From the NCBI GenBank assembly GCA_021813905.1, contig JAKAJH010000003.1, positions 12,967-76,966 on the forward strand: DNA of 64,000 nucleotides. The letters run 5' to 3'. Positions 4,998 through 34,472 of the stretch are shown here, one piece after another. This stretch comes from Bacteroidota bacterium (GTDB lineage: Bacteria > Bacteroidota > Ignavibacteria > UBA10030). Positions within the stretch are counted from its first letter, which is position 1. Each line of letters begins with the position of its first letter. The translations under genes were made by a program, and so were the position numbers. Under the pieces are notes generated by a model. The model searched no databases, was not told the origin of the DNA, and worked only from the letters and a program-made list of their open reading frames with translations.

Positions 4998-6230
4998 ATG
5001 TCCATTCGCCGATCGCTTCTGCTTCTTTCGATTCTGATGCTTCTGCCACTGCTGCTCCTCTCGCAGGTTCGGGTGGGAGCCGATCTGCTGCTCGCCAAAG
5101 AACAATCGCTGATCACGGGAAAGCGGGTCGGACTGATCACCAACCATACGGCACTGCTGGCCGACGGGCGTCATCTGGCTGATGCGATCGCTGCGCTGCC
5201 CGACGTGAAACTCGTGGCCCTCTTCGGACCCGAGCACGGTGTTCGGGGCGACGCGGCGGACGGCGCGACCATCGGGAACGGCGTCGATCCGAAGACCGGT
5301 GCGCCGGTCTATTCCCTGTACGGCCGCATCAACAAACCCACCGACGAGATGCTGAAAGGCGTCGATGTCCTTCTGTATGACATCCAGGATGTCGGTGTCC
5401 GTTTCTATACGTTCGAGAGCACGCTCATTCTCGGTATGGAAGCCGCCGCGGAACATCACATCCCTTACATCGTGCTCGACCGGCCGAATCCGATCACCGG
5501 AATGCGCGTGGAGGGGCCGCTCCGGGTCGATTCGCTGCGGTCGTTCGTCGGCTGGCTGCCCGTGCCGATTGCGCACGGGATGACGGTGGGAGAGCTGGCG
5601 ACCATGGCCAACGAGGAAGGATGGCTGGCGCATGGCATCAAAGCCGATCTTCACGTGGTGCGGATGGAGGGATGGAAACGGTCAATGTGGTACGACGAGA
5701 CGGGACTGCGCTGGGTGAAGCCGTCGCCCAATATGGCGACGCTGCGGACGGCGATCGTCTATCCCGGGACGTGCCTCGTGGAAGGGATCTCGGTGGCCGA
5801 AGGAAGAGGGACCGATCGGCCGTTCGAGTGGCTGGGTGCGCCGTTCATCGACGGCGATCGTTGGGCGCAGGCGCTGAATGGCCTCGCGCTCCCCGGCGTG
5901 CATTTCGAGCCGATCACCTTCGTGCCAAAAGAGATTCCCGGGGTCGCGTCCAATCCCAAGTTTCGGGATCGGCACTGCTCCGGCGTGTTCGTCGACGTGA
6001 CGGATCGCAATCGGTACGAAGCGGTTCGAACCGGGATCGCCATTCTGTCGACCATACGGTCGCTGTATCCGGACAGTGTTCAGTGGAGAGGAAGCATTGA
6101 TCGGCTTGCGGGGACTCCAGACGTGCGTCGCGCGATCGACCAGGGAGTCGATGCGGATTCATTGTGCGCGCGCTGGAAACCGGAGATCAACCGGTTCCGG
6201 AACATCCGGGAGAAATACTTGCTGTACTGA
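4998..6230 (+). CDS. namZ: Exo-beta-N-acetylmuramidase NamZ (DUF1343 family), exported
   Basis: This 410-residue protein belongs to the DUF1343/NamZ family, which removes non-reducing-end MurNAc from peptidoglycan chains. Residues 1-23 form a Sec signal peptide (a basic start, then a long leucine run). The conserved FGPEHGVRG motif places the likely catalytic Glu at residue 79. Further family motifs are YDIQDVGVRFYT, DRPNPI and the ARGRGT-like VAEGRGTDRPFE. It converges on nagZ, whose enzyme acts on the alternating GlcNAc in the same chains. In Bacillus the two enzymes work together in cell-wall turnover, which supports the same role here. Confidence 0.9.
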   Translation: MSIRRSLLLLSILMLLPLLLLSQVRVGADLLLAKEQSLITGKRVGLITNHTALLADGRHLADAIAALPDVKLVALFGPEHGVRGDAADGATIGNGVDPKTGAPVYSLYGRINKPTDEMLKGVDVLLYDIQDVGVRFYTFESTLILGMEAAAEHHIPYIVLDRPNPITGMRVEGPLRVDSLRSFVGWLPVPIAHGMTVGELATMANEEGWLAHGIKADLHVVRMEGWKRSMWYDETGLRWVKPSPNMATLRTAIVYPGTCLVEGISVAEGRGTDRPFEWLGAPFIDGDRWAQALNGLALPGVHFEPITFVPKEIPGVASNPKFRDRHCSGVFVDVTDRNRYEAVRTGIAILSTIRSLYPDSVQWRGSIDRLAGTPDVRRAIDQGVDADSLCARWKPEINRFRNIREKYLLY

Positions 6231-6275: not shown

Positions 6276-7985
6276 CTATCGGCTGACTGCTTCGCGGTCC
6301 AGTCCCGTCCCGAGGGGGAATTCGGCGGAAATCGAAACCGGCAATTTCCCGTGGACCGGGATCTCGCCGAACAATGCGCGCGCGGCCGCTTCCTGAAGAA
6401 CCTCGGCGTTGTCGTACGCGCAGACGTATGTGGAAAGCCCGGGGATGGTTCCTCCGGCGTACGGACTTCCGAATGACACCAGCACCACTCGGGGATTCGT
6501 CCGGACAAGTCGTGTGAGGAGATCTCGTTGGGCCGGCGGCAGATCCACGGTACCGCTGGCCATGAAGATCCGCACGTACGCGCTGACGATCACCGTCTCA
6601 CTTCGTTCTGCCTCCTCAAGGATCTTCGCGATCACGTCGGGCGTGAGCGTGTCGGGAACGTCGAAGACGGAAACGTCTGTCGATCGCTTCTGCACCTCCG
6701 CCGGGAACGTAACGCTCGTCCGTGACATCAGCGCCTGACCCGCCTGATTGTCGAGGGTGAGCAACAACGTGCGCGCGGCGGGATGAAGGGGGAGGATCGT
6801 GCGCTCGTCATTCACGAGTGTGATGCAGGATGCCGCCAGATTCCTGGCCCGCTCGAGGTTCCTGGGTGCTCGCAGTGTCCGCCCCAGGGCCGATTCGTCC
6901 ACGGAGTATCCCTGCCGGACGCCCCCCTGCGACTTGGCGCGCAGGATCCGTCGGACCGATGCATCGAGCCGTTCCCTGGAAATGCGTCCGTCCTGGACGG
7001 CTGCCAGCAGCGAGTCATACGCCGCCCGGACGCTCTCCGGCCACACCACCAGATCGACGCCTGCCATGATCGTCCGGATTGCCGCTTCACCCGGACCGGC
7101 ATGCTTGGCGATTGCCCCCATCACCATCGCATCGGTGCAGACGAGACCGTCGAATCCGAGCCGGTCCCGCAGAACTCTTTGAACCGCGTTCCGCGAAAAC
7201 GTCGCCGGCGTCGGGTCGACATCCAACGCGGGCAGCCAAAGATGGGACACCATGACAGCGGCCGGATGGTCGCGGCCGATGATCACGCGATAGGGGAGCA
7301 GCTCCGTCCGTTCGATCTTATCCATCGATCCCGCGACACGCGCCAGATCCGCGTGCGAGTCCACCGCCGTATTGCCGTGACCCGGATAATGCTTCAGCGT
7401 CGCGAGCAGTCCGTGGTCCTGATATCCGCGCACCGCAGCGGCGCCGAATTCGGCAACCCGCGCCGGATCTTCACCGAATGACCGGACATTGATGACCGGA
7501 TTCATCGGATTGTCATTGACGTCGACGACGGGTGCGAAATCGATGTGCACGCCGAGCGCTCGCGCTTCTTCAGCCGTGATCGCTGCTGCTTCGTACGCGG
7601 CGGCAGGATCGCCGCTCGCGGCCAGGGCCATCGCGCCGGGAAGGTCGATTCCCCCGTCCACATGAGTCCCGGCTCCTTTTTCGAAATCCACGGCGACGAG
7701 AAGGCCATAGGGAGCGATCCGCTGCAGCTGATTGAGCTGGCGGGCGATCTCGGGCGCTTTGGCCTTGGCGAACCACAGCCCGCCGACATGATACTCCCGG
7801 ACATTGCGCTCGGACTCTTCCATCGACTGATGAGCGGGCATGATAAGGTGGCCCACCTTGTCCTCCACGCTCATGCGGTTCAGCGTGGATTCCACCCACG
7901 CCGTGTCAACGGGATGCAACTGGCTGTGAACACTCAAAGGGATCATCAGGAAGAACAACAGAAGCGGGATACGCATCGGTTCCAC
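6276..7985 (-). CDS. nagZ: Exported family 3 beta-N-acetylhexosaminidase (NagZ type)
   Basis: This 569-residue glycoside hydrolase of family 3 has the NagZ signatures KHYPGHG (198-204) and DSH (209-211, general acid dyad), with the nucleophile Asp285 in VCTDAMVMG. Residues 1-22 look like a signal peptide (SVHSQ cleavage region), so it acts outside the cytoplasm, unlike the single-domain cytosolic NagZ of Escherichia coli. A second domain (about 390-569) ends in GKLPVSI, as in two-domain exported family members. The start is GTG 7985, with ATG 7976 as an alternative. It begins two bases after the metB-like stop, so they form one operon. Confidence 0.88.
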   Translation of the reverse strand: MEPMRIPLLLFFLMIPLSVHSQLHPVDTAWVESTLNRMSVEDKVGHLIMPAHQSMEESERNVREYHVGGLWFAKAKAPEIARQLNQLQRIAPYGLLVAVDFEKGAGTHVDGGIDLPGAMALAASGDPAAAYEAAAITAEEARALGVHIDFAPVVDVNDNPMNPVINVRSFGEDPARVAEFGAAAVRGYQDHGLLATLKHYPGHGNTAVDSHADLARVAGSMDKIERTELLPYRVIIGRDHPAAVMVSHLWLPALDVDPTPATFSRNAVQRVLRDRLGFDGLVCTDAMVMGAIAKHAGPGEAAIRTIMAGVDLVVWPESVRAAYDSLLAAVQDGRISRERLDASVRRILRAKSQGGVRQGYSVDESALGRTLRAPRNLERARNLAASCITLVNDERTILPLHPAARTLLLTLDNQAGQALMSRTSVTFPAEVQKRSTDVSVFDVPDTLTPDVIAKILEEAERSETVIVSAYVRIFMASGTVDLPPAQRDLLTRLVRTNPRVVLVSFGSPYAGGTIPGLSTYVCAYDNAEVLQEAAARALFGEIPVHGKLPVSISAEFPLGTGLDREAVSR

Positions 7986-9509: not shown

Positions 9510-10004
9510 ATGAACACGGGGCAGACGCTCCTCACGACGTTGGCGGTCATTCTGTTGGGGACGACCGTTCTGACGCTCAACAAGACCTTTCTTCAGCACG
9601 GCACGATCCTGCGGCAAACCGAGATCGGGGTGTACGCCGTTTCATTGGCCACGTCTGTCATCGAAGAAGCATCGGGCCAGGCATTCGACGAAAAGACGAT
9701 TGACGATGTGGTCACGTCGCCGACTTCCTTGACGTCATCCTCCCAACTGCGGGCGGAGAGCGGCGAAGTCTATCCGTATCTCGACGATTTTGATGACTAC
9801 AACGGCCTGCAACTTGGTTACAAAGCCGCGGGAACCGACTCCTTCAGTATCCGTCCGGTCGTGTACTACGTGAACGCCGCGTCCCCGAATACGCCTGTCT
9901 CCTCACCGACATTCTTCAAGCGGATGGATGTCTCGGTCTGGGGCACCGCCACCGGCGACACGGTGAAGATGTCCTACATATTCAGCTATTTCATCTTCAG
10001 GTGA
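9510..10004 (+). CDS. Prepilin-like membrane-anchored protein 1
   Basis: This 164-residue protein begins MNTGQTLLTT and then has one hydrophobic helix (about residues 6-24) and a soluble, mostly polar remainder. That plan matches minor pilins or pseudopilins: a very short leader ending in Gly, a helical stalk and a globular head. The Glu normally found at position +5 after the Gly is absent, so prepilin peptidase processing is uncertain. It is the first of three similarly built proteins encoded in a row. No specific family is recognised. Confidence 0.7.
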   Translation: MNTGQTLLTTLAVILLGTTVLTLNKTFLQHGTILRQTEIGVYAVSLATSVIEEASGQAFDEKTIDDVVTSPTSLTSSSQLRAESGEVYPYLDDFDDYNGLQLGYKAAGTDSFSIRPVVYYVNAASPNTPVSSPTFFKRMDVSVWGTATGDTVKMSYIFSYFIFR

Positions 10005-10008
10005 CGGC

Positions 10009-10626
10009 ATGGGCGCGAGTACGATGTTGGATATGATCGGCTCCTTTGTCGTCGGCGGGATGCTGTTTCTGATGGCCCTGCGACTGAATGCCAGCGCTGT
10101 CGAGGAATCATCGGTCTATAACGGCAACCTCATTCTGCAGCAGAACATGACGACAACGGTCAACCTGATCGAGACCGATTTCCGGAAGATCGGATACTGC
10201 CGAAACTGGCGGATGATCCCGGATCCCAGTCAATCGATCCGTATCGCCGACTCGAACCGGCTCCGGTTCTGGACCGATCTCGGGAATGACGGAACGCTGG
10301 ACAGCCTGACCTATTATCTTGGGCCCGCCTCCGAGTTGAATGATACCCCCAACCCTCGCGACCGCTTCCTGTACCGGCAGGAGGATGCCAATCCACCGGA
10401 GCGCATGAACCTGGGGATCACGCAGTTTCAGCTTCGCTACCGGGATGCGGAGGATTCGATCATTGCGTTCCCTGTCACGGATCCGCGCGAGGTCAATTCA
10501 CTTGAATTGTCGATCGCCATCGAATCGGCGGCTCCAATGACGCAGCAGTACATGAACGATACATCCCAGTACCAGGTCTTCTGGCGCCAGATTCGTCTGG
10601 TGACGAAGAACCTGCGAAATCGCTAG
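10009..10626 (+). CDS. Prepilin-like membrane-anchored protein 2 (PilW-like)
   Basis: This 205-residue protein starts MGASTMLDM, with a single N-terminal hydrophobic helix (about 8-25) and a soluble domain carrying a DFRKIGYCR segment near residue 56. That segment resembles the conserved region after the helix in PilW-type minor pilins, where aspartate and isoleucine/glycine residues precede a variable head. It starts four bases after the preceding stop, so the genes are coupled. A structural role in a pilus or type II-like assembly is inferred. Confidence 0.65.
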   Translation: MGASTMLDMIGSFVVGGMLFLMALRLNASAVEESSVYNGNLILQQNMTTTVNLIETDFRKIGYCRNWRMIPDPSQSIRIADSNRLRFWTDLGNDGTLDSLTYYLGPASELNDTPNPRDRFLYRQEDANPPERMNLGITQFQLRYRDAEDSIIAFPVTDPREVNSLELSIAIESAAPMTQQYMNDTSQYQVFWRQIRLVTKNLRNR

Positions 10627-10639
10627 GGCGGGGGGGGCT

Positions 10640-11857
10640 ATGGGCCGGTCTTCGATCCTTCTGGTGATGGGGTTCAACATCATTTTTCTGCTGATGGGGT
10701 TCAATCTCTCGCGGGTTTCGACCACCGCGTACGAAAACTACATCAGCTATTATCAGCGAAGCGTGGCGCACAATCTGTCCGGGAGCGCGGCGAACATGGC
10801 TGCAGCGCAGTTCATGACGAATCCCGCCTGGCGGACCGGATACTCCAACCTCAGTTTCTCCGGCGGCCGGATCGACGCGTCCATTGTGGACCTGGATTCC
10901 AATCGGGTCCAGATCACTACCACCGGGTCGATCGACAATGAATCCGCGACCACCGTCATCACGCTGGGACCGTCGCGCTTTTCGAAGTTTGCCTACTACA
11001 GCAACATTGAAGGAGCCATCTACTGGGTGACGGGTGATACGTGCTGGGGACCGATGCACACCCAGCAGAAGATCAATGTCGCCGGCGAGCCGGTGTTCTA
11101 CGGCAAGGCATCGTCGAAAAACGGGATCTCCAAGAATCCATCGTCGTCGAAGCCCAAGTTCTACGGCGGGTACCAGAGTGGAGTTGATATTCAGCTGCCG
11201 ACGAACTTCGGCCCGCTGCAGACGGCAGCGACGGCCGGCGGCATGTACTGGAACAACACGGACATTTGGCTCAGCTTCAACAGTGACGGCACGGTCGTCG
11301 TCCGGGAAGGAAGCGCCACGGCCACGCCAACGACAGTTGCGCTGACGAGCCTTGCTCCGAACGGCGTGTTGTATGCCAACAATGCCAACGTGCACATCAA
11401 GGGAACTCTGAGCGGCAAGATCACGCTCGCCGCCACCGGTAGCTCCGGCGTCGCCAAGGGAAACGTCTGGGTGGACTCGTCCGTCATCTACAGCCAAAAT
11501 CCCTTGACCGGCTCGTCCCCCGATATGCTCGGCATCGTCGCCGACAATGACGTCATTATCGCGGACAACGCCAACAATAACAATGCTGCGAAGGGTGTCA
11601 CCATCCATGCGTCGATCCTGTCCCGATCCGGCGGCCTGAAAGCGGAGAACTACAATTCGCGTCCGATTGCGGGGACACTCACTCTGCTCGGTGGAGTACA
11701 GCAGTACCAGCGGGGACCAGTCGGGACCTTCTCCGGATCAGCGACGATTGTATCCGGTTTCCAGAAGAATTACCGGTATGATGAGCGGATGGCGAACGAC
11801 TTTCCGCCTTTCTATCCGGCGACGCAGATCTACGAGGTACTTTCGTGGTATGAATAG
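10640..11857 (+). CDS. Prepilin-like membrane-anchored protein 3 (PilX-like, large)
   Basis: This 405-residue protein starts MGRSSILLVM and has an N-terminal helix (about 5-24) followed by a long beta-rich extracellular part. It includes the stretch GAIYWVTGDTCWGPMHT near 130 and a glycine/asparagine-rich middle. The C-terminal region (IVADNDVIIADN, then a run of asparagines near 315) resembles bacterial proteins annotated as PilX N-terminal/DUF4900 types that expose repetitive strands. It closes the three-gene operon before a terminator. Function beyond surface assembly is not known. Confidence 0.65.
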   Translation: MGRSSILLVMGFNIIFLLMGFNLSRVSTTAYENYISYYQRSVAHNLSGSAANMAAAQFMTNPAWRTGYSNLSFSGGRIDASIVDLDSNRVQITTTGSIDNESATTVITLGPSRFSKFAYYSNIEGAIYWVTGDTCWGPMHTQQKINVAGEPVFYGKASSKNGISKNPSSSKPKFYGGYQSGVDIQLPTNFGPLQTAATAGGMYWNNTDIWLSFNSDGTVVVREGSATATPTTVALTSLAPNGVLYANNANVHIKGTLSGKITLAATGSSGVAKGNVWVDSSVIYSQNPLTGSSPDMLGIVADNDVIIADNANNNNAAKGVTIHASILSRSGGLKAENYNSRPIAGTLTLLGGVQQYQRGPVGTFSGSATIVSGFQKNYRYDERMANDFPPFYPATQIYEVLSWYE

Positions 11858-11882: not shown

Positions 11883-11911
11883 AAGGCCCGAGTGACCCTC
11901 AGGCCTTTTTT
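11883..11911 (+). terminator. Rho-independent terminator after the prepilin-like operon
   Basis: AAGGCC at 11883-11888 pairs with GGCCTT at 11902-11907, and six T residues run to 11911. Confidence 0.6.
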
Positions 11912-12033: not shown

Positions 12034-12597
12034 ATGGCGACCACAGCAGATTTCAGAATTGGCATGATAATTCGATTCAACGGGGAATTGCACCGGATCG
12101 AAGAGTACATCCACAGAACGCCGGGTAACCTCAGGGCGTTCGTCCAAGCGAAGCTTCGCAACCTCAAGAATGGCCGCGTGACTGAGACGCGCTTTCGCTC
12201 CGGAGAAGAGGTCGAAGAAGTCCGCATGGAACAGCGGGAATTTCAGTATCTCTTCCATGACGGAGCAAGCTTCCAGTTCATGGACAAGGAGTCGTACGAG
12301 CAGATTCCTGTCGATGAGAAGCTCCTCGGGCAAGGCGCCGAATTCCTCAAGGAAGGGGAAACGGTCGTGCTGAACCTGGTGGGCACCGACATAGTCGGCG
12401 CTGAACTTCCGTACAACGTGGAGCTGAAGATCGTCGAGACCGTCCCCGGAGTCCGGGGCGACACGGCCTCCGGCGCGACGAAGCCCGCAAAGCTGGAAAC
12501 GGGGGCGACGGTCAATGTTCCTCTGTTCCTGAACGAAGGCGACGTGATCCGTGTGGACATCCGCACGGGCAAGTACCTCGAGCGGGTCAACAACTAG
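12034..12597 (+). CDS. efp: Translation elongation factor P
   Basis: This 187-residue EF-P has the usual three beta-barrel domains. It relieves ribosomes stalled on consecutive prolines. The C-terminal signature ([19 protein letters not shown]) is intact. The domain I loop that reaches the peptidyl-transferase centre reads TPGNLRAF (29-36). At the place of the modified Lys34 of Escherichia coli there is Asn32, followed by Leu33 and Arg34. This is not the usual PGKG loop, nor clearly the arginine-rhamnosylated type. The efp-accB-accC order is a common bacterial arrangement. Confidence 0.95.
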
Positions 12598-18252: not shown

Positions 18253-21200
18253 ATGTTTCCAGTCGATGACAGGCTTAGCTTTGGTGCCGAGACCGAGTTG
18301 AGGGAGGCGAGGTCTTATTACCCCGCGCTTGCGGCGTTGCCCAAGAACTACGCCGTCTTTCCTCATTTCTGCCTGTCATTTTGTCCCATGTCGTTCCGCA
18401 ACTCCAAAAATATCGCGAAGTCTTTTCCCTTGAGGGGCGCGCCCCGGGTGGGGATGTGCGGACTTGTGCGAACCCTCGTTCACCTGACGTCGGCCATTCT
18501 GCTTCTTCTCAGCCTCGGTTCATTTGCTGCTGTTGCCCAGAGCCTCGCGAACTACACGGTCACTCGGACGACCGGAATCACGTACAGCTCGATCGCAGCG
18601 ATCGGAAATTCCGTCCCGAGCTGGCGCAATTCCACGCAATGGGTACAGGACGATAATCGGAGCTATCCGATTCCCATTGGCTTCGACTTCTGGTACAACG
18701 GAGTTCGCTACACCACCATCAGTATATCGACGAACGGATTCGCGGACTTCTCATCCTCAACGGCCGACGGCACGATCGGTGCAGATCAACTCGGCCGTGA
18801 CTATGATTCTCAGAATCAGCGAGTGTCGAGCACCAGCGGACTGATCGCTTGGAACGTACTGGCGCCGTTCTATGACGATCTTACCACGCAAAACGAAGCC
18901 GATCCACTGGGCACGAGCATTAAGTTCCTGACCAGCGGCACCGCGCCGTACCGCGTCTTCACGCTCGAATGGATCAATATGAGCGTGTGGAACTATGCCG
19001 GGTTAGGGACCAGTCTGAATTTCCAGGTAAAGCTGTACGAGACAACCGGCGTCATCGAATTCGTGTACGGCACCATGACAAGCGGGTCGGCGGTCTATAG
19101 CGCGACCTGCGCGTTCAACGCTGCGGATCTTTCCGGAGGACTCACGACGGCTGTCCTTCGGACGCAACAGAAGATCAATACGGTCACCTTCACGGCGAGA
19201 CCGCAGAACAATCTCACATCCTCTCCTGCGTCGAACTCTCGCCTTGAGATCACGCCACTGTCCGCCGCGGCACCCACGGGGATGAACTTCGTGAATGTGG
19301 CACAGACTTCCATGCGCGTCCGGTGGACGGATAACGCCACGAACGAAGTCGGATATGCCATCTACCAGTCCAGCGATGGATTGAACTATTCCTTCGTTCG
19401 TCAGGACCCCGCTCGAGCAAGCACCGGGCTCGACTCTGCCGACATCAGCGGACTCGTCAGCGGGACAACCTATTACTTTCGCATCATGGCGGTGACGGAG
19501 GGACAGGTCAGCGCCGCAGCGACCGGATCACAGGCGACGCTGCCGGCGGGCGATGATACTTCGGCGCAGAGCGGACTCTGGAGCTTGCCGTCCACATGGT
19601 CGAGCGGCAGTGTGCCCGGCGTCGGAACGAACGTGGTGATCCACGACGGGCATACCGTGACGATCGACGGGAACATCATCGCGAACAGCGTCACCGTCGG
19701 AACCGGCACGAGCGGAAGCCTGCAAATCGGTACCGGTAGCACGGCACTGACCGACACAGTGCTGAGCGCTTTCACCGTCCGGCCCGGCGCGACATTCACG
19801 GTAAATGCGGCATCGACCACGACGGGGCACCGCCTTGTGCTGGGCGGAAATCTGGTGAATGACGGGATCGTGAATTTTGCACCGGCGCCGGGAAGCAAAT
19901 GTGCGCTGACATTCTACCGCACGGGACTGCACACAATCAACGGCACCGGTTCGCAGACAAATCTGTACCGGCTGACCGCGGCGCTTGGACCGGCATCGGG
20001 TGATATGCTCGACATCTTCCCCGCATCACTGACCGCGGACACGGCCGGCTTCCTTACCATCGATCAGGGGATCGTCCGTCTGTCCGCCGCGGGAACGTTC
20101 ACGCCGTTCATCGGCAATGCCTTGATCCCTCAGTTCGCCGGATTCTGGCTGAACAACAGCGGCGCTACGGTGACGGTGAAGGATAGCCTGACGGTGGCGG
20201 GACTGCTTCGGGTGACATCGGGCTCGATGACCGTGGGGACGGCGGTCAACAACCGACTTCTGTCTTCGGGTGGATCATTCATTTTCGAGGGAGGCAACAC
20301 CTCTGTCGCCGGGAGTTTCAACCCGAAGGAAACGACCGCCATCACCGACTTCACGATGACGGGCGGGACGATCACCGTCCCGACGATCGGCACGACCAGT
20401 TCGGCGCTCCAGAACTCCCCGTTTACGGTGGACGTGGTCGGATCGTCGTTCAATATGAGCGGAGGAACGATCGTCGTGCGGGCGGAGGGCGGTGCCGGCC
20501 CGGACGACCTTGGGTACGTCAACACCGGTTCGACGATCTCTTCGGTGACCGGCGGGACTGTGCAAATCGGTTCACCGTCGAGTCCTCAAGGGCAGACGAT
20601 GCGGGTCCGTTCCACGATCCCGATCTACAACCTCAGCGTCAGCGGGACGGGCAACGCCAGCGTGGACGGAAATCTGACCGTCCTGAACGACGTGGCGATC
20701 AGCGATACGCTGTTTGGCGGTTCCTCGACGCTCTCTGTCGGACATAACTGGACAGATAACGGCGTGTTCGTGCCCCAAAGCGGGACGGTACTCTTCAACG
20801 GATCCGGTGCCCAGACGATCAGTCGCCCGGGCGGAGAGCGGTTCTTCGGGTTGACGGTGAACACGACCGGCACGGTGAGCTGGAACGCAGACCTGGCCGT
20901 GGACGGGCCGTTCAATCTGAGCTCCGGTACCGCGAATGTCGGAAGTGACACGCTGACACTGGCGGGATCCGTCGTGGGCAACGGCGCGTTCGTCAGCAAT
21001 TCAGACGGGACCGTTCGCTACGTGCAGGCAACCGGGGGACAGAACATACTCGCGGGCTCGTACGGCAATTTGACGCTTGGAAATGCGGCAAAAGTGTTCC
21101 CGAACGGCGGCACCGTTGCTGTCGCTGGGACGTTCGCTCCGGGCACAGGCACCGGGCACGTCGTCACCGGCAGCACGGTGAATTTCACCGGGGTCTCGCA

Positions 21201-24200
21201 GACGGTCGGGCGCTTTGATTTCAATCATCTGATGTTCTCCGGTTCAGGAACTCCGCGCGTTTCGGGACAGGATCTCGTCTCCGGAAACCTGACGATCCAG
21301 CCCACGGTGACGTTGACCTGCGACAGCGCGCTTGTGGTCAATGGGAGTGTCACCAACAATGGCACGACGACCGGCAGCGGGCGGGTCGTCCTGAATGGCG
21401 GTGGAGCCCCCCACTTGCTGAGTGGTGCGGGAACGTACTCCCGTCTGCAGTTGAACGACACGCAGGGCGCAATTCTCTCCGGCAGTCTTTCGATCGACGA
21501 TTCGCTTTCCCTGACTTCCGGCGTGATCAGCACGGGGACCGACACAGTCCGCATCGGACCGACGGGTGTTGTTTCCCGAGTGAACGGACACGTCAACGGG
21601 TGGCTGCGAAAAGTGGTGCCGGCCGGTACGGCGCGAGCGGTGACGTTCGAGATCGGTGATGCGGTCAATTATGCACCCGCCCAGATCTGGTTTAACACCG
21701 TATCGACGGGCGGCACTCTGTCGTGCCGTGATACGGCGATCCAGCATCCGAGCATCAGCTCCTCCTTCATCAATCCCACCGACGGTGTGAATCGGTACTG
21801 GACCCTACGGCCCGGGAACGGATTAGCGTTCACGCCCGGAGCCGGTGATAGTATCCGGCTGACGTACGTGTCCGCCGATCAGGACGTGCCGGCGAGCTAC
21901 CCGCTGTATCGCGTCAACGTGTACAACGGAAGCTCGTGGGACTCCACGGATGCCGGCGGACGGACCTCAACGACGACAACGGGGAAGACGCTCTTCGGAC
22001 TGGGCGATTTCGCGATCGGTGTCCAGAATGCAGCAGGAGCGTACCGCACTGCGCAATCCGGCGACTGGAATCTGGCATCGACCTGGCAGAAATTCGACGG
22101 GACCGCGTGGGTGGCCGCCACCGCGAGTCCGACGAGCACGGATGGAACGATCACGATTCGAAGCGGACACACCGTTACCGTGACGGCGAATCTCACCATC
22201 GACCAGACGATCGTCGAAGCGGGCGCGCACCTCGTTATCGGCACAGGGAACATCACGCTGACGATCGCTGGCGGACCGGGCACCGATTTGACGGTCCTGG
22301 GAACGCTGCAGAATGCCAGCAACAACGACATCATAACCACAGGGACTGTGGGATTTGCGGCCGGATCCCGGTACGAGCATCGGCGGCATGGCGGGAACAT
22401 CCCGCTCGCGACCTGGGATGCGACATCGACGTGCGTGATCATGGGCGGTGCGACGGCCGGCGCGACACTGCCGGGGAACCGGAATCAGGCGTTCGGCAAC
22501 TTCCAATGGGACTACGCGACGCAGAACGCGGCGCTGAACCTCGCGGCACAACCGGGCTCCATCCAGGGTGACTTCAGTATCACGAACACGAACGGTCAGA
22601 CTTTGCAGTTGTACTCCGCCGCGGGCCAGTCGATCAGCACGGGCGGTCGCTTCGTGGTGGACGGCGGCACGGTCGTCGGGTTCACGACAAGCACGACCGC
22701 GACACTGACGTTGAACGTTAGTGCTTCACTGGTGGTCGGCTCGGGTCAGTTCAATCTGTCGACGGGCCGGGGCGTTACAGCGAACCTCAACGTCGGCGAC
22801 AGCCTGGTGGTATCCGGTGGCACGCTGAACCTGAGCGGGGCCAACAGCACGATCGGCAGGATCAACCTCCAGGGTCATTTCTTCCATCCCGCAGGGACGA
22901 TCACGGAGACAGCGGGCGGGTCCGGACAGATCAACTTCATCGGCTCGGGCGTGCAGCACTATGTCGGCGGCGGAACCATCCTGAACACGATCAATTTCAC
23001 GGTCGGAACCGGCGCATCGTTGTATCTGGGGACGGACACACTGACCGGATCCGGCACATTCACCCTCTCGTCCGGTGCGACACTCGGGATCGGCTCGCCA
23101 CAGGGCATTTCGTCGTCGGGGGCAACGGGAAATATTCAGGTCACAGGCACCCGATCCTTCAACACGGGAGCGAAGTACGTCTACGACGGCACCGGGTTAC
23201 AGCTGACCGGAAACGGCCTGCCGTCAACGGTGAAGCAGTTGGTCATCGTCAATGCGGCTGGCGTCACTTTGAATGCATCGGTCACGGTGAGTGACACGCT
23301 CTTCCTGACCAACGGGACATTTGCGATCGGTGCGAATACGCTCACCCTGAGCAATACCGCGACAGTCACCGGCGGGTCAATGACGAGCGCCACGACGGGC
23401 ACGGTCGTCTACAACCGCGCTTCAGCCGGACAGCCGGTCCTGCGCGCGCAGTACGGCAATCTGACGCTCAACAACTTCGCCAAAGTCTTCGCCACGGACG
23501 ACACGGTGCGCATTGCCGGGACGTTCCTTCCGGGCACAGCCGCCGGGCATTCGATTGCCGGAACGACGTTCGATTTCAACGGGGCGTCGCAGGTCATTCC
23601 GTCGTTCCGCTTCAACAACCTGCGACTGAGCGGAACGGGGACAAAATCGCTCGGTGCAACGGATACCGTCCAGGGCCGTCTGGATATCCAGGGTGTCACG
23701 TTCAGCGACAGCGTGTTTACTCTGGTGCTGAACGGATCGATCACGAACGCGGGCACGCACACAGGGACCGGACGTATTCGGCTGACGGGGACCTCCTCCG
23801 CTCCGTCGATCACCGGGACCGGGCACTTCGGCAATCTGGAAATCGACAATCTGTCCTTTGGCGCCGCGCTTGGCAGCGACCTGATCGTGGACGGCATCCT
23901 GACGCTGACGCGCGGGATCATTTCCGCCGGTATGGACACAGTCATCATCGGTCCCACCGGTTCCGTGGCACGACCGGTGAGCGGCGGGCATGTGTTCGGA
24001 TATATGCGCAGGTCGGTCTCCACGAGTGCGCTCCCGCAGTCGGTCACCTTCGACGTCGGCGACAGCCTGTACTACGCTCCCATTTCGATGGCATTCGTAT
24101 CGGTGGCGACAGCCGGAACCATGACTGCGCGCACGGTCCGGACAGAGTACCCGACGCTGCAGCAGTCCGGACTTGATCCGGCAAAGTCGGTGAACCGTTA

Positions 24201-26376
24201 CTGGGACGTCCGTAATAACGGCGTCGTGTTCACCTCGTTCGATGGGACGTATACGTTCGATCCGCTGGACGTCGATGCCGGAGCGAACACGGCGATGTTC
24301 TTTGTCCGGCGCTATACGGGTCTTCTCTGGAAAGCCACGACGACAACGGCACGGACCGCGACGAGCACGACGGCTGCCGCCCTCGTCGGGGTCGGGGATT
24401 TTGTCACCGGTGAACTGTCGTCGACGTTCTACTGGACCGGAGACGGGGGGAGCCACAGCTGGAAGGATCCGCAGAACTGGAGCGGACTCAATGTCCCGCT
24501 TCTCACCACGACGGTGATCCTGAATGGTCCGGATGCCATCGATGTCGACACGACCGCGAAAGCGCGGGTGATCACGATGGCCAACGACTCGCTTGTGCTT
24601 ACCGTCCTGCCATCCGCGAACCTTCGGGCGGTCGACACGCTTGCGATGACCCTCGGAACGCTCAACATCCAGACCGTTCGGTTCGATTCCGTGACGACGA
24701 TGGCGTTGAGCAGTGGAACGGTCGCGTACACCGCAGCGAGCGGAACGCAGGTGATCATGCCGGCGGCGTACCGAAATCTGACGCTCAGCGGCGGCGGATC
24801 GAAATCGGCGGGCGGAGCATTCTCGGTGGCGGACACGCTCAGAATCCTGCCGGGATGCACGCTGAATGACAGCACCTCCGTTGTCACTGTAAAGGGGAAT
24901 GTCATCAACGGCGGTGTTCATACAGGCGGCGGCAGGATCCTCCTCAGCGGCGGGGTGGTCGCTCATGGATTGTCCGGCGGAGGGACCTTCACGAACATTG
25001 AGCTGAATGACGTCGTCGGGGCGACTCTTGCCGGAGCCCGAACCACCGTCAGCGGTACGTTGACATTGACCCAGGGCATCCTGACCGTCCCCAACGTGAG
25101 CGACACGCTGAGCATCGGGGCGACGGGCGCGGTGACGCGCTCGAGCGGCTACGTGGTCGGAAATCTGCAGAAGTACGTGCCGACCGGCTCTCCGAGCGTC
25201 GTGTGGGAGGTTGGTTCGCTATCGGCGTATCGGCCGGTACGCATCGCGTTCACATCCGTCACGACACCGGGTTTCATGACGCTGATGCGTGTCGCCGGAG
25301 AGCATCCGAACGCGTCGCATGCATCGAATCTCGTTGACACGACGATGGATGTGAACATCTGGTGGAGACTCGTGAACAGCGGGACTGTTCTCGGCGGGAC
25401 GTTCGAGGCCACGGTGGCGTACAGCAACCCCGGAGAACTGAATGCCGGGGTTACGCCGACGGGGACGGATTTCATCGGTGAGCGGTGGACCGGAACGGCA
25501 TGGATCGGGGTTCCGGTGGGGCAGCGATGGGCCGACAGTACGCGGATTGACAGCTTGACCGCGTTCGGCGATTTTGTCCTCGGCAAGGCGCTTGCCACGC
25601 TTCTTTCGGCAGCACAGAGCGGCCTCTGGAGCGATCCGGCAATCTGGGGTGGTCGCGTGCCGGGTGCCAATGACACCGTGGTGGTCGTGAGTCCGTACAC
25701 AATCACGCTGAATACGAATACGACCATCACGAAGCTCGTCGTGAATTCCGGCGGTACATTCTCGGACAGCACGTTCACGCTGACCCTGACGGGCGACCTG
25801 GTGCTGAACGGCACATGGAAGGGAAACGGAATCATCTCGCTCACGACGGCGAATGATACCATCTACGGCACGGGGTCGGTTGCGGGGACGAGCATCCTGC
25901 AGATCGCGGGCAACAAGGTGGTGCATCCGACAGCGAACCTGACCCTTCATCAGGTCAACGTTGTGGCGGGAGACACCTTGAAGAACATCGGGACCGTCAC
26001 CGCGGACTCGATCGTCGGATTCGGACCATCGTCGGTTTGGCTCAACGCGGCCGGATCCACGCTGGCGGTGAACGGGGCACTGCTGACGAACGGAACGCTG
26101 AATGCGACATCCTGCCCGAATACCGTGGCGTTCGTCGGGACGGCGGATCAGACCGTCAAGGTGACCACGTATTGCGATCTCGTGCTGTCAAATGGGTACA
26201 CCGGAACACTGCCGGACCACACCAAGCTGATTCCTTCGTCGCTGAGCGTTCTGAACAATCTCACGGTTTCACCCGCCACGTTCGTGCAGATCCCCTCGTC
26301 GACGGTCGTGTCGGTCGGTGCGACGTTCGAGAATGACGGGCGCGTCGATAACCAGGGGACGATCCGGACACCATAG
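18253..26376 (+). CDS. Giant secreted beta-strand-repeat protein with FN3 and G8-like segments (2707 aa)
   Basis: The open frame encodes 2707 residues. The likely signal peptide is at 68-97 (MCGLVRTL, leucine run, AVAQS), so the true start may be ATG 18388 or 18454. After a beta-sandwich-like region (98-330) comes a fibronectin type III domain (about 337-431). Four W-containing G8-like segments follow (starting near 437, 1266, 2057 and 2453). The rest is repeats with consensus [YF]-x-x-L-x-L plus a later GxK/GxV. Three modules of about 285-335 residues (926-1260, 1723-2056, 2162-2447) are clear duplications, each ending in GxGDFxxG. No T9SS sorting domain is seen; the protein stops at NQGTIRTP. 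It is likely a surface or matrix adhesin. Confidence 0.85.
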   Translation: MFPVDDRLSFGAETELREARSYYPALAALPKNYAVFPHFCLSFCPMSFRNSKNIAKSFPLRGAPRVGMCGLVRTLVHLTSAILLLLSLGSFAAVAQSLANYTVTRTTGITYSSIAAIGNSVPSWRNSTQWVQDDNRSYPIPIGFDFWYNGVRYTTISISTNGFADFSSSTADGTIGADQLGRDYDSQNQRVSSTSGLIAWNVLAPFYDDLTTQNEADPLGTSIKFLTSGTAPYRVFTLEWINMSVWNYAGLGTSLNFQVKLYETTGVIEFVYGTMTSGSAVYSATCAFNAADLSGGLTTAVLRTQQKINTVTFTARPQNNLTSSPASNSRLEITPLSAAAPTGMNFVNVAQTSMRVRWTDNATNEVGYAIYQSSDGLNYSFVRQDPARASTGLDSADISGLVSGTTYYFRIMAVTEGQVSAAATGSQATLPAGDDTSAQSGLWSLPSTWSSGSVPGVGTNVVIHDGHTVTIDGNIIANSVTVGTGTSGSLQIGTGSTALTDTVLSAFTVRPGATFTVNAASTTTGHRLVLGGNLVNDGIVNFAPAPGSKCALTFYRTGLHTINGTGSQTNLYRLTAALGPASGDMLDIFPASLTADTAGFLTIDQGIVRLSAAGTFTPFIGNALIPQFAGFWLNNSGATVTVKDSLTVAGLLRVTSGSMTVGTAVNNRLLSSGGSFIFEGGNTSVAGSFNPKETTAITDFTMTGGTITVPTIGTTSSALQNSPFTVDVVGSSFNMSGGTIVVRAEGGAGPDDLGYVNTGSTISSVTGGTVQIGSPSSPQGQTMRVRSTIPIYNLSVSGTGNASVDGNLTVLNDVAISDTLFGGSSTLSVGHNWTDNGVFVPQSGTVLFNGSGAQTISRPGGERFFGLTVNTTGTVSWNADLAVDGPFNLSSGTANVGSDTLTLAGSVVGNGAFVSNSDGTVRYVQATGGQNILAGSYGNLTLGNAAKVFPNGGTVAVAGTFAPGTGTGHVVTGSTVNFTGVSQTVGRFDFNHLMFSGSGTPRVSGQDLVSGNLTIQPTVTLTCDSALVVNGSVTNNGTTTGSGRVVLNGGGAPHLLSGAGTYSRLQLNDTQGAILSGSLSIDDSLSLTSGVISTGTDTVRIGPTGVVSRVNGHVNGWLRKVVPAGTARAVTFEIGDAVNYAPAQIWFNTVSTGGTLSCRDTAIQHPSISSSFINPTDGVNRYWTLRPGNGLAFTPGAGDSIRLTYVSADQDVPASYPLYRVNVYNGSSWDSTDAGGRTSTTTTGKTLFGLGDFAIGVQNAAGAYRTAQSGDWNLASTWQKFDGTAWVAATASPTSTDGTITIRSGHTVTVTANLTIDQTIVEAGAHLVIGTGNITLTIAGGPGTDLTVLGTLQNASNNDIITTGTVGFAAGSRYEHRRHGGNIPLATWDATSTCVIMGGATAGATLPGNRNQAFGNFQWDYATQNAALNLAAQPGSIQGDFSITNTNGQTLQLYSAAGQSISTGGRFVVDGGTVVGFTTSTTATLTLNVSASLVVGSGQFNLSTGRGVTANLNVGDSLVVSGGTLNLSGANSTIGRINLQGHFFHPAGTITETAGGSGQINFIGSGVQHYVGGGTILNTINFTVGTGASLYLGTDTLTGSGTFTLSSGATLGIGSPQGISSSGATGNIQVTGTRSFNTGAKYVYDGTGLQLTGNGLPSTVKQLVIVNAAGVTLNASVTVSDTLFLTNGTFAIGANTLTLSNTATVTGGSMTSATTGTVVYNRASAGQPVLRAQYGNLTLNNFAKVFATDDTVRIAGTFLPGTAAGHSIAGTTFDFNGASQVIPSFRFNNLRLSGTGTKSLGATDTVQGRLDIQGVTFSDSVFTLVLNGSITNAGTHTGTGRIRLTGTSSAPSITGTGHFGNLEIDNLSFGAALGSDLIVDGILTLTRGIISAGMDTVIIGPTGSVARPVSGGHVFGYMRRSVSTSALPQSVTFDVGDSLYYAPISMAFVSVATAGTMTARTVRTEYPTLQQSGLDPAKSVNRYWDVRNNGVVFTSFDGTYTFDPLDVDAGANTAMFFVRRYTGLLWKATTTTARTATSTTAAALVGVGDFVTGELSSTFYWTGDGGSHSWKDPQNWSGLNVPLLTTTVILNGPDAIDVDTTAKARVITMANDSLVLTVLPSANLRAVDTLAMTLGTLNIQTVRFDSVTTMALSSGTVAYTAASGTQVIMPAAYRNLTLSGGGSKSAGGAFSVADTLRILPGCTLNDSTSVVTVKGNVINGGVHTGGGRILLSGGVVAHGLSGGGTFTNIELNDVVGATLAGARTTVSGTLTLTQGILTVPNVSDTLSIGATGAVTRSSGYVVGNLQKYVPTGSPSVVWEVGSLSAYRPVRIAFTSVTTPGFMTLMRVAGEHPNASHASNLVDTTMDVNIWWRLVNSGTVLGGTFEATVAYSNPGELNAGVTPTGTDFIGERWTGTAWIGVPVGQRWADSTRIDSLTAFGDFVLGKALATLLSAAQSGLWSDPAIWGGRVPGANDTVVVVSPYTITLNTNTTITKLVVNSGGTFSDSTFTLTLTGDLVLNGTWKGNGIISLTTANDTIYGTGSVAGTSILQIAGNKVVHPTANLTLHQVNVVAGDTLKNIGTVTADSIVGFGPSSVWLNAAGSTLAVNGALLTNGTLNATSCPNTVAFVGTADQTVKVTTYCDLVLSNGYTGTLPDHTKLIPSSLSVLNNLTVSPATFVQIPSSTVVSVGATFENDGRVDNQGTIRTP

Positions 26377-30371: not shown

Positions 30372-33300
30372 ATGGGTATATCTGTTCTTGCATCAATCGG
30401 GACCGCAGAGCGGAAACCGGCAAGGGAGCAGTGCAGGGAGAAGTGTACTGAATCGTCGTTCATGAGACGACAACCAACATATCGCAATCGTTCGCGCGGA
30501 CGGCCGCCCTGGCATGTGGTCGTTGGCCTCATCCTCGCGCTGACCGCGCTGTTCGGCGTTGACGCGAGCGGGCAGAATGTCATTGCCCGTGGCCGGATCA
30601 CGAACAATGGAACGTTCCGCATCCAGGGTAACTCCCAGGGCATGTCCGGGAGTCTGAACGGCACGTTTGAGTACTTTGGCGGCAACCAGTCGATCGCCGG
30701 CCAGTCGTACCAGACCCTGCTGCTGAGCGGAACCGGCACGAAGTCGGCCGACAGCAGTATCACGGTCTTCCAGCACGTGACGGTGGCCCCGGCGGTGACG
30801 CTGCAAATGCAGCCCGGTGCCGTACTCCGTCTTGACGCAGCGGGCGGGCGGCTCACCGAGAACGGCTACGTCAGCGGCAAGCTGGAGAAATCGGAACAGC
30901 TCGCGACCGCATCGGCATCGACCGACTTCGGAGGGATCGGTCTGTCCGTCCGGTTGGGTGCGCAAACGCCCGGCTTGACCACGGTGGAACGGATCTCCGG
31001 AACCGCGACCGTCGTGAACGGCAAGTCGTCGATCCGCCGGCAGTTCGTTGTCACTCCGGCCGTGCTGTCGACAAGGTTCGACACGCTCCGGTTCTCGTAC
31101 GCTTCAGATGAGGTGACGGGTCAGGATACCGCGTCGCTTGATCTGTGGCGTTCGATCGACGGAGGAACGACCTGGCGGCGGCAGCATACCGTGCGTGACG
31201 GAACGGCGAAGACGCTCTTCCGGCGGGGGATCCCGCTCGCCGGTATGTGGACGGCGGCGGACTCCGGGAATATCATCGGCCGACCGAACTACGAATGGGA
31301 TCCGGATTCACTCTGGCGGGTGACTCCAGATTCCGTCCGCGGACGGGTCGGTCGCATCCTCGACGCGTTCATCGCTCGAGTGTCCGACGTGTACGGCAAT
31401 CCGGTTGCGGGCGTCCCCGTGACCTTCCGTGTCGTCTCCACACCCACAGGTGCGATCGGCGCATCGCTGACGCAGGTTTCGGCCGTGACGGACTCGCTCG
31501 GCAACGCATCCACCCAGCTCACCCTCGGAAATCTCCGCGGCGACTATGCCGTCGAAGCGAAGGTAATTTCCGGATCGGCTCCGCCGACCGCGTTCCACGC
31601 CCATGCGGATCCGGGTGCGGTCGCACTGCCGATCGCGGCCGGCAATCTCCAGACCGACTCCATCCGCACGGTCCTGCCGACGGCACTCAGCGTCGTCGCG
31701 AAGGATTCGGCTGGCATCGGTGTGCAGGGCATCCCGGTGGCATTCACAGTCATTCAGGCACCGGCAGGAGCGACCGGTCAGCAGTTCGTCAGCGTCTCGG
31801 ATACAACGGATTCCGTCGGCGTGGCGCATGCGTCGTTCCGCTTTGGTACGAAAGCAGGGACGTACGTGATCCGGGCGGTATCGGCGGAGATCCCGGGCGA
31901 CTCCGCGACCTTCCAACTGACGGCTACGCACGGTGCACCGGCGCTGGCCTGGAAGGACAACGTGGCGCGGCAGGATACGATCGGCACAACGCTTGTACCG
32001 TTCGTTTATACAGTGACTGACGGCGACACGAATGCGGTGCCCGGCCGGACCGTGCAGTTCGCCGTTGCACAACGACCGGCGGGAGCAGTCGGCGATTCGC
32101 TGCTGACCGTCTCCGCGACGACCGATTCGCTCGGTCGTGCCGTTGCGACATTCCGGCTTGGTACGAAGGTTGGCACGTATGTCGTGAATGCTGCCGATGC
32201 GGGACTTCCGAATTCGATCCGCGCGTTCTCTGTCACGGCCAGGCCCGGTCTCCCGGCCTTCGGGCTTGCAGTCGTGCCCGCACGGGCCGACACGATCGGT
32301 GCGTTGCTGGCGCCGTTCACCGTGCGCATTGCCGATCGCGGCGACAATCCGGTAAGTGGTGTGCCGATGATATTTGCGTTCGCCGGCACGCCGGCCGGAA
32401 CGGCGGGCGATTCGCTGCTTGTCCTTCGGGCACAAACCGACACGCTGGGTCTTGCAGCGGTGCAGGTGCGTCTGGGCGACAAGGCGGGGGACTATTCTGT
32501 CCGCGCGACGTCGACGGCCATACCGGGTTATGCCGGCGTGGAGCTCTTCCGGGCCCAACCGGGCATGCCGGCGTCCGTCGTGGTGAACTCCGGTGCGAAC
32601 CAGTCAAAGAGCATCCTGCAGCCGCTCGATTCGCTGATCGCGGTCCGGCTGACGGATCGTGCAGCCAATGCCATTCCGCTCGACTCCGTGGAATTCCGGA
32701 TCATCGGCGCACCGGCGGGCGCGACCGGACAGGTACTGAGCTCTTCGATGGCCGTCACCGATTCGTCGGGATTGGCGTCCACGCAACTGATGCTGGGAAC
32801 GAAGACCGGCACGTATGAAGTGCTGGCCCGCTCGGTACGCCGCGCGGGTGTATTCGTGTCCATCGGCGCGACGGCGCGCAACGGTGTTGCGGCGCACATC
32901 GACACGAGCGGCATCGGGGTGCCGACGCAGCCGATCCTGACGGTGCTGAATACGCCGTTCACGGTGCGGATCACGGACGTGGGTGGAAACGCGGTTCCTC
33001 GAGCCTCTGTCACGTTCTCGATTGCCGGACGGCCGGCGGGTGCCGTTAAGGATTCCATTCTCACCTCGACGGCGCTGACCGATTCGACGGGTGAGGCGCG
33101 CACGGTTCTGCTTCTCGGCACGAAGGTCGGTGATTATCTCGTACAGGCGGTTACGGCGGATCTGCCGGGTGACACCGTACAGTTCCGGGCTCGTGCCACG
33201 GTCGGGGCCCCGTCGGCGTTCGTTGCGCTTGCGGGCGCAGGGCAGAGAGCCCAGATCGGCGATCGTCTCCAGGCGTTTACGGTCCACGTCGTGGATGTCG

Positions 33301-34472
33301 GCGAGAATCCGGTCCCGAACGCCGCCGTTGCATTCCGCATTGTGGAACGCCCGGCGCTGGCCAGCGGCGACTCGCTCACGGTGACGACGGCGAAGACCGA
33401 TTCTGCCGGAAGGGCCTCGACAGTCATGGTGCTCGGCAGCCGTCCCGGTCGCTACACCGTACAGGCGTCCGGCACGGGCGTGCGTGACACATCGTTCGCG
33501 GCCGAGGCGATCTTCGTTCTGGCGGATGTCAACAACGACAATTACCAGAACATCGGCGACCTGACGGCAATCATCGACCACATCCTCGGCCGCCGTATCC
33601 TGACAGGATATGATTTCATCAAGGCGGACATCGACAACAACGGCGTTGTGGATGTGCGCGACGCGTTGCGATGCCGTGACAGTCTCCTTGTCGGCGCCTG
33701 GAATCCCGTCTACAATTGGACGACGCAGACGTATCTTGGCAAGAAGTCCGGCGCGATGGCCGCTGCTGCATCCGATCCGCCGGAGAACTCCGGTGACGGC
33801 AACGCTGCGGTCAAATCTGAATTGCAGCGCACACACATCGGAGCGCGATTCTACCTCCGCAACTCCGTGCCGATCAAGGGCTTGCAGGCGACGGTGTTCC
33901 TGAAGCATCCGGCGGATATCGACACGGTCGATCTTGTCTTCCCGTCAGCCAAGATGATGAACGTGAGTGTCCGGAGCGTGGGGAACGAGGTGCACATGGT
34001 GCTGTTCAACTTCTCCAACACGCCGATCCAGGCGGATACCGGCGCTCCCGTGTTCCGGCTCCCGCTGAAGCTCTCGTCACTCTCGGATATCGACTCGATC
34101 CGTGTGGTGGCCAGCGTGGATACGAATGTGGCATCTCTGGTGCCGTCTGCCACCGAGGATCTGACAAATTCACTGCCGGTCAACTGGACGCTGTATCAGA
34201 ACTATCCCAATCCGTTCAACTCGAGCACGACGATCGAATTTGACGTGCCCGAAGTGGTCGGCAAAGTGCCGCGGCTCGCGGTGCAGATCTTCGACCTGCT
34301 CGGTCGCAAAGTCATCACGATCGAGAAAGGCAACTACGATGCCGGCATGCGCTATCGCGTGGTGTGGGACGGCCGGAACGAGGCCGGCGAACACGTGGCG
34401 TCGGGGGTATACTTCTATCGGTTGCTTGCGGGTGATTACGTGAGCACCAAGAAAATGGTGCTGCTGAAATAA
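30372..34472 (+). CDS. T9SS-secreted Ig-like repeat protein with dockerin-like domain and type A sorting domain (1366 aa)
   Basis: ATG 30372 opens the frame; ATG 30462 (MRRQPT) fits better before the signal peptide (VVVGLILALTALFGVDASGQ). Residues about 67-178 repeat the beta-strand motif of the upstream genes (ITNNGTF, YQTLLLSGTGTKS). Seven Ig-like (Big_1 type) repeats of about 105 residues follow (316-1047), each with PAGAxGDSL, TDSxGxA and LGTKxGxY. A dockerin-like pair of calcium loops (DVNNDNYQNIGD, DIDNNGVVDVRD; about 1050-1107) and a cohesin-like stretch (about 1149-1243) precede the T9SS domain (1273-1366: YQNYPNPFN, FDLLGRKV, KKMVLLK). It should be exported by T9SS and anchored or released at the surface. 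Confidence 0.92.
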   Translation: MGISVLASIGTAERKPAREQCREKCTESSFMRRQPTYRNRSRGRPPWHVVVGLILALTALFGVDASGQNVIARGRITNNGTFRIQGNSQGMSGSLNGTFEYFGGNQSIAGQSYQTLLLSGTGTKSADSSITVFQHVTVAPAVTLQMQPGAVLRLDAAGGRLTENGYVSGKLEKSEQLATASASTDFGGIGLSVRLGAQTPGLTTVERISGTATVVNGKSSIRRQFVVTPAVLSTRFDTLRFSYASDEVTGQDTASLDLWRSIDGGTTWRRQHTVRDGTAKTLFRRGIPLAGMWTAADSGNIIGRPNYEWDPDSLWRVTPDSVRGRVGRILDAFIARVSDVYGNPVAGVPVTFRVVSTPTGAIGASLTQVSAVTDSLGNASTQLTLGNLRGDYAVEAKVISGSAPPTAFHAHADPGAVALPIAAGNLQTDSIRTVLPTALSVVAKDSAGIGVQGIPVAFTVIQAPAGATGQQFVSVSDTTDSVGVAHASFRFGTKAGTYVIRAVSAEIPGDSATFQLTATHGAPALAWKDNVARQDTIGTTLVPFVYTVTDGDTNAVPGRTVQFAVAQRPAGAVGDSLLTVSATTDSLGRAVATFRLGTKVGTYVVNAADAGLPNSIRAFSVTARPGLPAFGLAVVPARADTIGALLAPFTVRIADRGDNPVSGVPMIFAFAGTPAGTAGDSLLVLRAQTDTLGLAAVQVRLGDKAGDYSVRATSTAIPGYAGVELFRAQPGMPASVVVNSGANQSKSILQPLDSLIAVRLTDRAANAIPLDSVEFRIIGAPAGATGQVLSSSMAVTDSSGLASTQLMLGTKTGTYEVLARSVRRAGVFVSIGATARNGVAAHIDTSGIGVPTQPILTVLNTPFTVRITDVGGNAVPRASVTFSIAGRPAGAVKDSILTSTALTDSTGEARTVLLLGTKVGDYLVQAVTADLPGDTVQFRARATVGAPSAFVALAGAGQRAQIGDRLQAFTVHVVDVGENPVPNAAVAFRIVERPALASGDSLTVTTAKTDSAGRASTVMVLGSRPGRYTVQASGTGVRDTSFAAEAIFVLADVNNDNYQNIGDLTAIIDHILGRRILTGYDFIKADIDNNGVVDVRDALRCRDSLLVGAWNPVYNWTTQTYLGKKSGAMAAAASDPPENSGDGNAAVKSELQRTHIGARFYLRNSVPIKGLQATVFLKHPADIDTVDLVFPSAKMMNVSVRSVGNEVHMVLFNFSNTPIQADTGAPVFRLPLKLSSLSDIDSIRVVASVDTNVASLVPSATEDLTNSLPVNWTLYQNYPNPFNSSTTIEFDVPEVVGKVPRLAVQIFDLLGRKVITIEKGNYDAGMRYRVVWDGRNEAGEHVASGVYFYRLLAGDYVSTKKMVLLK

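Follow-up and report, generated by a model that had tools for sequence, protein, structure and literature searches.

The Ignavibacteria genome of the Bacteroidota deposited as assembly GCA_021813905.1 contains three consecutive genes for minor pilins (I, J and K) that belong to a type IV pilus system. They reside at positions 9510 to 11857 of a 64,000-nucleotide stretch of contig JAKAJH010000003.1 (C29 in our set), the whole of which is referred to as the window in the following. The trio probably represents a displaced I-J-K cassette, encoding the presumed tip or priming complex, from a type IV pilus whose pilins carry no cleavable leaders and are assembled without a prepilin peptidase. The data described below lead us to conclude that type IV pilins translated at mature length are assembled throughout a large lineage around the Ignavibacteria. 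It also appears probable that the Ignavibacteria and related classes of the phylum operate type IV pili without prepilin peptidase, with pilins that are born mature and whose N termini depend only on the start codon plus, given a suitable second residue, methionine aminopeptidase. Leader and prepilin peptidase count as defining, near-universal features of type IV filaments; the textbook step of leader removal may thus be dispensable.

Three consecutive genes with very short N termini

The three genes are all transcribed from the forward strand and are closely spaced, with 4 bases between the stop codon of the I gene and the start codon of the J gene and 13 bases between those of J and K. The I-type protein (9510..10004, 164 amino acids, MNTGQTLLTTLAVILL) begins with MNTGQTLL, and its assignment to the GspI/PilV position is based on its place in the operon and on the form of its N terminus. 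The J-type protein (10009..10626, 205 amino acids, MGASTMLDMIGS) begins with MGASTML and adopts a predicted GspJ/XcpW fold, and the K-type protein in the GspK/PilX position (10640..11857, 405 amino acids) combines the N terminus MGRSSILLVMG with a long head. One to three residues at most precede glycine in the trio, the leader of the I protein being MNT at most before Gly4, and none of the three proteins carries glutamate at position +5. In-frame stop codons are located 4 (I), 14 (J) and 12 (K) codons ahead of the starts and no ATG, GTG or TTG occurs in these intervals, such that a leader of normal length in J or K would need an unusual start codon. A preliminary description of the window had pointed at three consecutive prepilin-like proteins with unusually short leaders and no Glu at +5. 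Coordinates and starts proved correct, and the statement on Glu is refined by an invariant aspartate in J (see below).

Homologues were gathered from the window, its sister contigs and 36 loci, mostly from Ignavibacteria and Bacteroidota metagenome-assembled genomes, which emerged from a scan with the PilB protein encoded on sister contig C38. This yielded 21 open reading frames (ORFs) each for I, J and K and 27 for a major pilin with the N terminus MGQQQ; alignments A1 to A4 omit all sequences of loci L004 and L007, the I proteins of L057 and L058 and the K proteins of L058, L067 and L079. Full-length homologues of I, J and K with equally short N termini are present in about 20 other loci, and homology kept over the whole length rules out that the trio consists of chance hydrophobic ORFs. 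M1 and Q5 are invariant and G4 is nearly so in the I alignment (the window and 16 further rows), as are M1 and G2 in the 16 aligned rows for K. Pfam and NCBIfam searches with the three window proteins returned sub-threshold matches only, among them a weak one to DUF4900 for K (E 0.0022, 18.8 bits versus a cut-off of 29.4) and one to PRK10557, a 'prepilin peptidase-dependent protein', for J (E 0.002).

Fold and acidic residue of the J protein

An AlphaFold2 model of the window J protein (19-row alignment, mean pLDDT 79.8) exhibits the long N-terminal helix and the GspJ-type beta head that characterize the GspJ/XcpW family. TTHA1219 and GspJ/XcpW/EpsJ proteins occupy the first ten ranks among its structural matches with Z scores of 12.4-10.3, followed by an unrelated row at Z 3.9. 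A check of the fold of the heads had been proposed earlier; carried out on J, it favours the pilin reading.

Asp8 of window J (codon 10030..10032, forward strand) is conserved without exception across the 19 J sequences of the alignment and takes a Glu5-like place in the alignment and in the structural match. When compared with the XcpW pseudopilus filament model, the alignment opens at residue 4 of our model, equivalent to chain residue 1, and Asp8 thus falls at +5, within an N-terminal part of the model that is of modest confidence (pLDDT 63-73). Throughout the family, aspartate is found at ORF residue 6 in 19 and at residue 8 in 8 of 28 J proteins, i.e. at either position in 27/28, with Asp6 being the fifth residue when counting starts from the residue after Met. 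Glu5 may hence be read as retained in the form of Asp5 in the J family.

Start codons and pilins across the family

Starts were counted in 102 loci, mostly the best-scoring ones and including those used to build the profiles, by taking the ATG, GTG or TTG closest to the profile start within six codons and excluding ORFs already open at the beginning of the locus strand; an earlier rule for picking starts had failed for the K protein of L067. These loci encode 119 distinct major pilins, every one of which has Gly2 and 114 of which start with MGQQQ. No ATG, GTG or TTG lies between the in-frame stop codon and the MG start in 118/119, and the gap between stop and start amounts to five codons or fewer in 94/119, which limits the length of any leader irrespective of the start codon used. 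An acidic residue does not occur among the first 12 positions of any of the 119 major pilins, and Glu5 is thus absent. The minor pilins behave alike: standard upstream starts are missing in 28/28 I, 26/28 J and 26/27 K proteins, with medians of 5.5, 5 and 5 codons, respectively, from stop to start. G4-Q5 is present in most members of the I family. K proteins feature Gly2 in 26 of 27 cases, mostly followed by a basic residue (Lys or Arg) at position 3, and no acidic residue in the first 12 positions. A class III signal peptide, i.e. a hydrophilic leader of 6-26 residues ending in Gly, is not found. It is conceivable that the starts are misassigned and that translation begins further upstream at a non-standard codon, yielding a longer leader, for which the window itself leaves 14 (J) and 12 (K) open codons. 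This explanation is contradicted for the family by the closely preceding stop codons, and we consider it extremely improbable.

A model of the MGQQQ pilin of a relative (26-row alignment, pLDDT 90.5) consists of a helix spanning residues 2-55 and a four-strand beta sheet. Its best 19 structural rows are all type IV pilins (Z 10.8-6.7, where rows below Z 8 carry little weight); Foldseek alone gave a best pilin match with E 0.12. Pfam and NCBIfam searches with the major pilins yielded nothing useful.

The pilus machine in the same genome and in relatives

As noted in the preliminary description, neither an ATPase nor a platform or peptidase gene is adjacent to the trio, and no pil gene at all adjoins it within the window. 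The genome (3.08 Mb, 90 contigs, rated 100% complete with a contamination of 0.15%) nevertheless encodes three matches to the extension ATPase (T2SSE, 1.6e-106 to 8.6e-33), two genes for the two-domain platform protein (T2SSF, four half-hits) and one match to secretin (1.7e-23), all of which reside on two other contigs, C48 and C38. Of the suggested genome-wide search for PilB, PilC and PilD, the first two were thus retrieved, and the third was not: neither PF01478 nor a class-specific PilD profile detected a prepilin peptidase in this genome. Contig C48 carries pilC and pilB and, behind them, a second set of I, J and K genes (MSLGQSIL, MVALLDLI, MGSSKIIL); the gene of a small pilin-like protein (MGQQQMLLVLLGI) is oriented divergently to these. 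On C38, a third trio (MQTGQTML, MGALFDYI with a GTG start, MGRAAMLM) follows pilC-pilB on the other strand, and beyond it reside genes for a PilT-like ATPase, two proteins in PilM/PilN position and the secretin. The two genes between pilT and the secretin gene gave no significant Pfam matches. The K proteins of the three trios comprise 144, 348 and 405 amino acids, and the differing lengths of their heads may provide exchangeable tips. The paralogous trios on two other contigs and the contamination of 0.15% rule out that the window trio was introduced by faulty binning. The classical prepilin motif PF07963 has no match in this genome, and searches that rely on such motifs (class III signal peptide, PF07963) will therefore overlook pili of this kind.

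Gene order was examined in 27 selected loci. The complete arrangement pilA-pilA-pilC-pilB-I-J-K-pilT-pilM-pilN-pilQ is present in L067, L073, L074, L077 and L082. The identity of window J amounts to 41-50% with its counterparts in L067, L073, L074 and L082 and to 27-34% with the other 14; window K shares 36-39% with K of L073, L074 and L082 and 16-27% with the other 12 aligned. On the basis of these identities, the window trio is the orthologue of the trio located directly behind pilB in four relatives, and in the window it stands apart, beside efp. A search for the same trio in relatives, recommended at the outset, was thereby successful.

The composition of the machine also bears on the possibility that the same parts form a type II-like secretion pseudopilus instead of a surface pilus. 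Such a function would agree with the J fold, which is nearest to GspJ/XcpW and TTHA1219, with the I-J-K-type trio common to both kinds of system and with a weak T2SSM match of the PilN-like protein (E 0.026). The operon, however, includes a second, PilT-like ATPase and duplicated small major pilins that match pilus pilins, and we therefore regard a pseudopilus as unlikely, if still the most serious competitor of the type IV pilus.

In a FastTree phylogeny of 125 PilB/PilT-type ATPases, partial ORFs included, rooted on the PilT-like group, the 65 PilB proteins of the leaderless system form one clade (support 0.993). A separate clade (0.991) unites the ATPases from classical loci (15 sequences, the majority encoded beside PilD) and includes PilB of L083, a distant relative from the scan that proved to be part of a classical pilB-pilC-pilD locus and was used as a contrast. 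In 13 loci from genomes outside the class, 21 of 21 pilins begin with MGQQQ. The earlier suggestion of a distinct pilus-like or secretion assembly thus gains support in the form of a type IV pilus-type machine with its own PilB clade, leaderless pilins and usually no peptidase. Genome G013 carries on contig C42 (L131:9783) a second, long-branch PilB-like ATPase near the leaderless operon, which falls into the clade with a match much weaker than the others. The platform proteins of the system (e.g. L062:8523-9896 and L006:12858 onward) are long, with open frames of about 446-519 amino acids compared to 355-415 for classical ones of the same class, and the additional N-terminal part has no Pfam match.

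Distribution of the prepilin peptidase

An even draw of 119 genomes of the class and a sample of 395 genomes of the phylum were inspected. In the class draw, the platform protein is encoded in 64 and the MGQQQ-family pilin in 65 genomes, 62 of which have both, and PF01478 is matched in 6. A PF01478 match is missing from 56 of the 62 genomes with platform and pilin. A profile built from the class's own PilD proteins recovered the same 6/119 at E < 1e-60 and returned elsewhere only values of 0.008 or worse. In the phylum sample, 129 genomes encode the pilin, 51 PF01478 and 15 both; the peptidase is undetected in 114/129 pilin carriers, single-contig genomes among them, and a further 36 of the 395 genomes have PF01478 and no MGQQQ-family pilin.

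Among pilin carriers, the peptidase tracks the classical prepilin and not the MGQQQ pilin, since all 15 genomes with peptidase and pilin contain a classical prepilin (PF07963) at a distance of 530-1484 bp from the peptidase, compared to only two of the 114 carriers without peptidase (G033 and G257). Genome G013 has two PilD matches; the distance refers to the copy on C8, and the contig of the other copy (C31) is devoid of PF07963. PF01478 is not matched in 12 of the 13 single-contig pilin carriers of the phylum sample, nor in G032, a one-contig genome of the class draw. Loss of the peptidase gene from the assemblies is thus rejected as a general cause.

Classical prepilins accompanied by PilD are encoded in the same class (for example in L117, L118, L119, L121 and L123) and belong to the same superfamily, in part in the same or in sister genomes. 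Unlike the leaderless pilins, they possess leaders of about 8-30 residues, a G-F cleavage site, Glu5 and a PilD gene next door (e.g. ...GFSLTELMVALVIIGVL), and their PilB-type ATPases make up the clade that contains L083. Genome G033, which is near-complete and has no PF01478 match, harbors a lone classical GspG-like prepilin on contig C6 (L139).

Proposed assembly

Subunits of the system would be translated at mature length, with Met placed immediately, or no more than three residues, ahead of the residue that becomes N-terminal in ordinary pilins through peptidase cleavage. They would insert through their hydrophobic helix with the N terminus inside, in keeping with the Lys or Arg at position 3 of most K proteins, and the N terminus would be finished by deformylase and, where residue 2 permits, methionine aminopeptidase. 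Met can be removed by the latter enzyme if followed by Gly, Ser, Thr, Ala or Val, as is the case in 26/28 J proteins. A tip complex would be built from I, J and K in the manner of GspI-J-K, the top being taken by K with its lack of acidic residues among the first 12 positions, and PilB/PilC would add MGQQQ pilins to the filament without a prepilin peptidase or its N-methylation. If this is true, the leader, the leader peptidase, N-methylation and the Glu5-N1 contact are all dispensable for type IV filament assembly, and a polar signature, QQQ in the major pilin or Asp in J, stands in for Glu5. A bacterial lineage devoid of these elements would render the roles of leader, cleavage, N-methylation and Glu5 testable.

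Several observations weigh against such an assembly. Searches of PDB sequences with the I and K alignments retrieved unrelated chains only. In hhalign comparisons with classical pilins of the same class, alignments A1, A2 and A3 reached probabilities of 0.7-2.1% and nothing significant, so that the kinship with type IV pilins rests on the fold, the operon and the machine genes. In the I family, residue 2 is N, Q or E in 15/28 proteins, from which Met is expected to be retained. The invariance of Gly2 in the major pilins exceeds what the aminopeptidase needs, given that Ala, Ser and Thr are also accepted, and another role of this residue is possible. Over the 395 genomes, pilin and PF01478 are uncorrelated (Fisher p 0.64, kinship ignored). 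Finally, G033 (99% complete), the near-complete G065 and G257 contain a classical prepilin motif and no PF01478 match, and G033 and G065 in particular indicate that a peptidase can escape detection, be it by the PF01478 profile or in the assemblies.

Two alternatives concern the peptidase. On the one hand, an unrelated, still-unknown enzyme could cleave behind the conserved glycine and release two to four residues (MG, MNTG), such that an ultra-short leader is processed after all. Gly2 in 119/119 major pilins and 26/27 K proteins and G4-Q5 in most I proteins recall the Gly(-1) that precedes the mature residue, and in comparisons of the major pilin model with full-length PAK, FimA and gonococcal pilin the matches open at model residue 4, equivalent to chain residue 1. 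The J family, however, does not keep the glycine (its second position holds G, S, T, A, V, N or H) and most carriers lack an A24 peptidase, which makes such processing rather improbable. On the other hand, a peptidase may be present and have been overlooked because assemblies are incomplete or because the A24 enzyme is extremely diverged, as the three genomes with unaccompanied prepilin motifs and the 90 contigs of the window's genome would allow. This is very unlikely in view of the 12 single-contig carriers of the phylum sample and of G032, all without PF01478, of the class-specific PilD profile that found nothing further and of the fact that a missed enzyme would not make the leaders any longer.

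Relation to known systems

With type IVa pili, the leaderless system shares PilB, PilC, a PilT-like ATPase, the secretin, putative PilM/PilN-like genes, the fold of the major pilin and the I-J-K minor pilins; it differs by the lack of leaders, of Glu5 in the major pilin and, in most carriers, of a peptidase. The I-J-K trio and the J fold are shared with the type II proteins GspI-GspJ-GspK (XcpVWX, EpsIJ), and the K-like subunit is devoid of Glu5, as described in a review passage for the type II tip subunit (PMC10191384). In contrast to type II pseudopilins, the window trio is leaderless, J carries Asp for Glu and the head of K is long and weakly DUF4900-like.

Passages from two reviews give 6-26 residues for prepilin leaders and count the peptidase among five core parts (PMC4471445, PMC10191384), and one of the two found Nanoarchaeota to be the only group with type IV prepilins that lack a detectable peptidase (PMC4471445). 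In a superfamily survey, the peptidase is regarded as a key component and as shareable between systems, MSH loci lacking their own and co-occurring with peptidase-bearing systems (PMC6668835). In open-licence PMC papers, we found nothing on leaderless or peptidase-free type IV pilins. For Melioribacter roseus, pilT, pilQ, pilB and pilC have been reported and the set was considered incomplete by the authors (PMC3534657). A leaderless pilA would account for both absences in this organism, the genome of which lies outside the loci named here.

Neighbouring genes in the window

The trio is closed by a hairpin followed by a T run on the forward strand (11883..11911) that resembles an intrinsic terminator by sequence and fold, with a whole-stretch z-score of only -1.29. 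It precedes efp for elongation factor P (12034..12597, forward strand), a neighbour that is not part of the pilus system. Further downstream, an ORF of 2707 amino acids (18253-26376) with matches to fn3 and G8 domains encodes a very large protein of the secreted type. A protein of 1366 amino acids (30372-34472) contains five Big_1 repeats, a dockerin match and a Por/CHU type IX C-terminal signal just below the cut-off, which suggests type IX secretion as a further possible pathway of the organism. Upstream of the trio, genes for a NamZ exo-muramidase (4998-6230) and a family 3 glycoside hydrolase (6276-7985) adjoin each other on opposite strands and have the appearance of a peptidoglycan-recycling pair.
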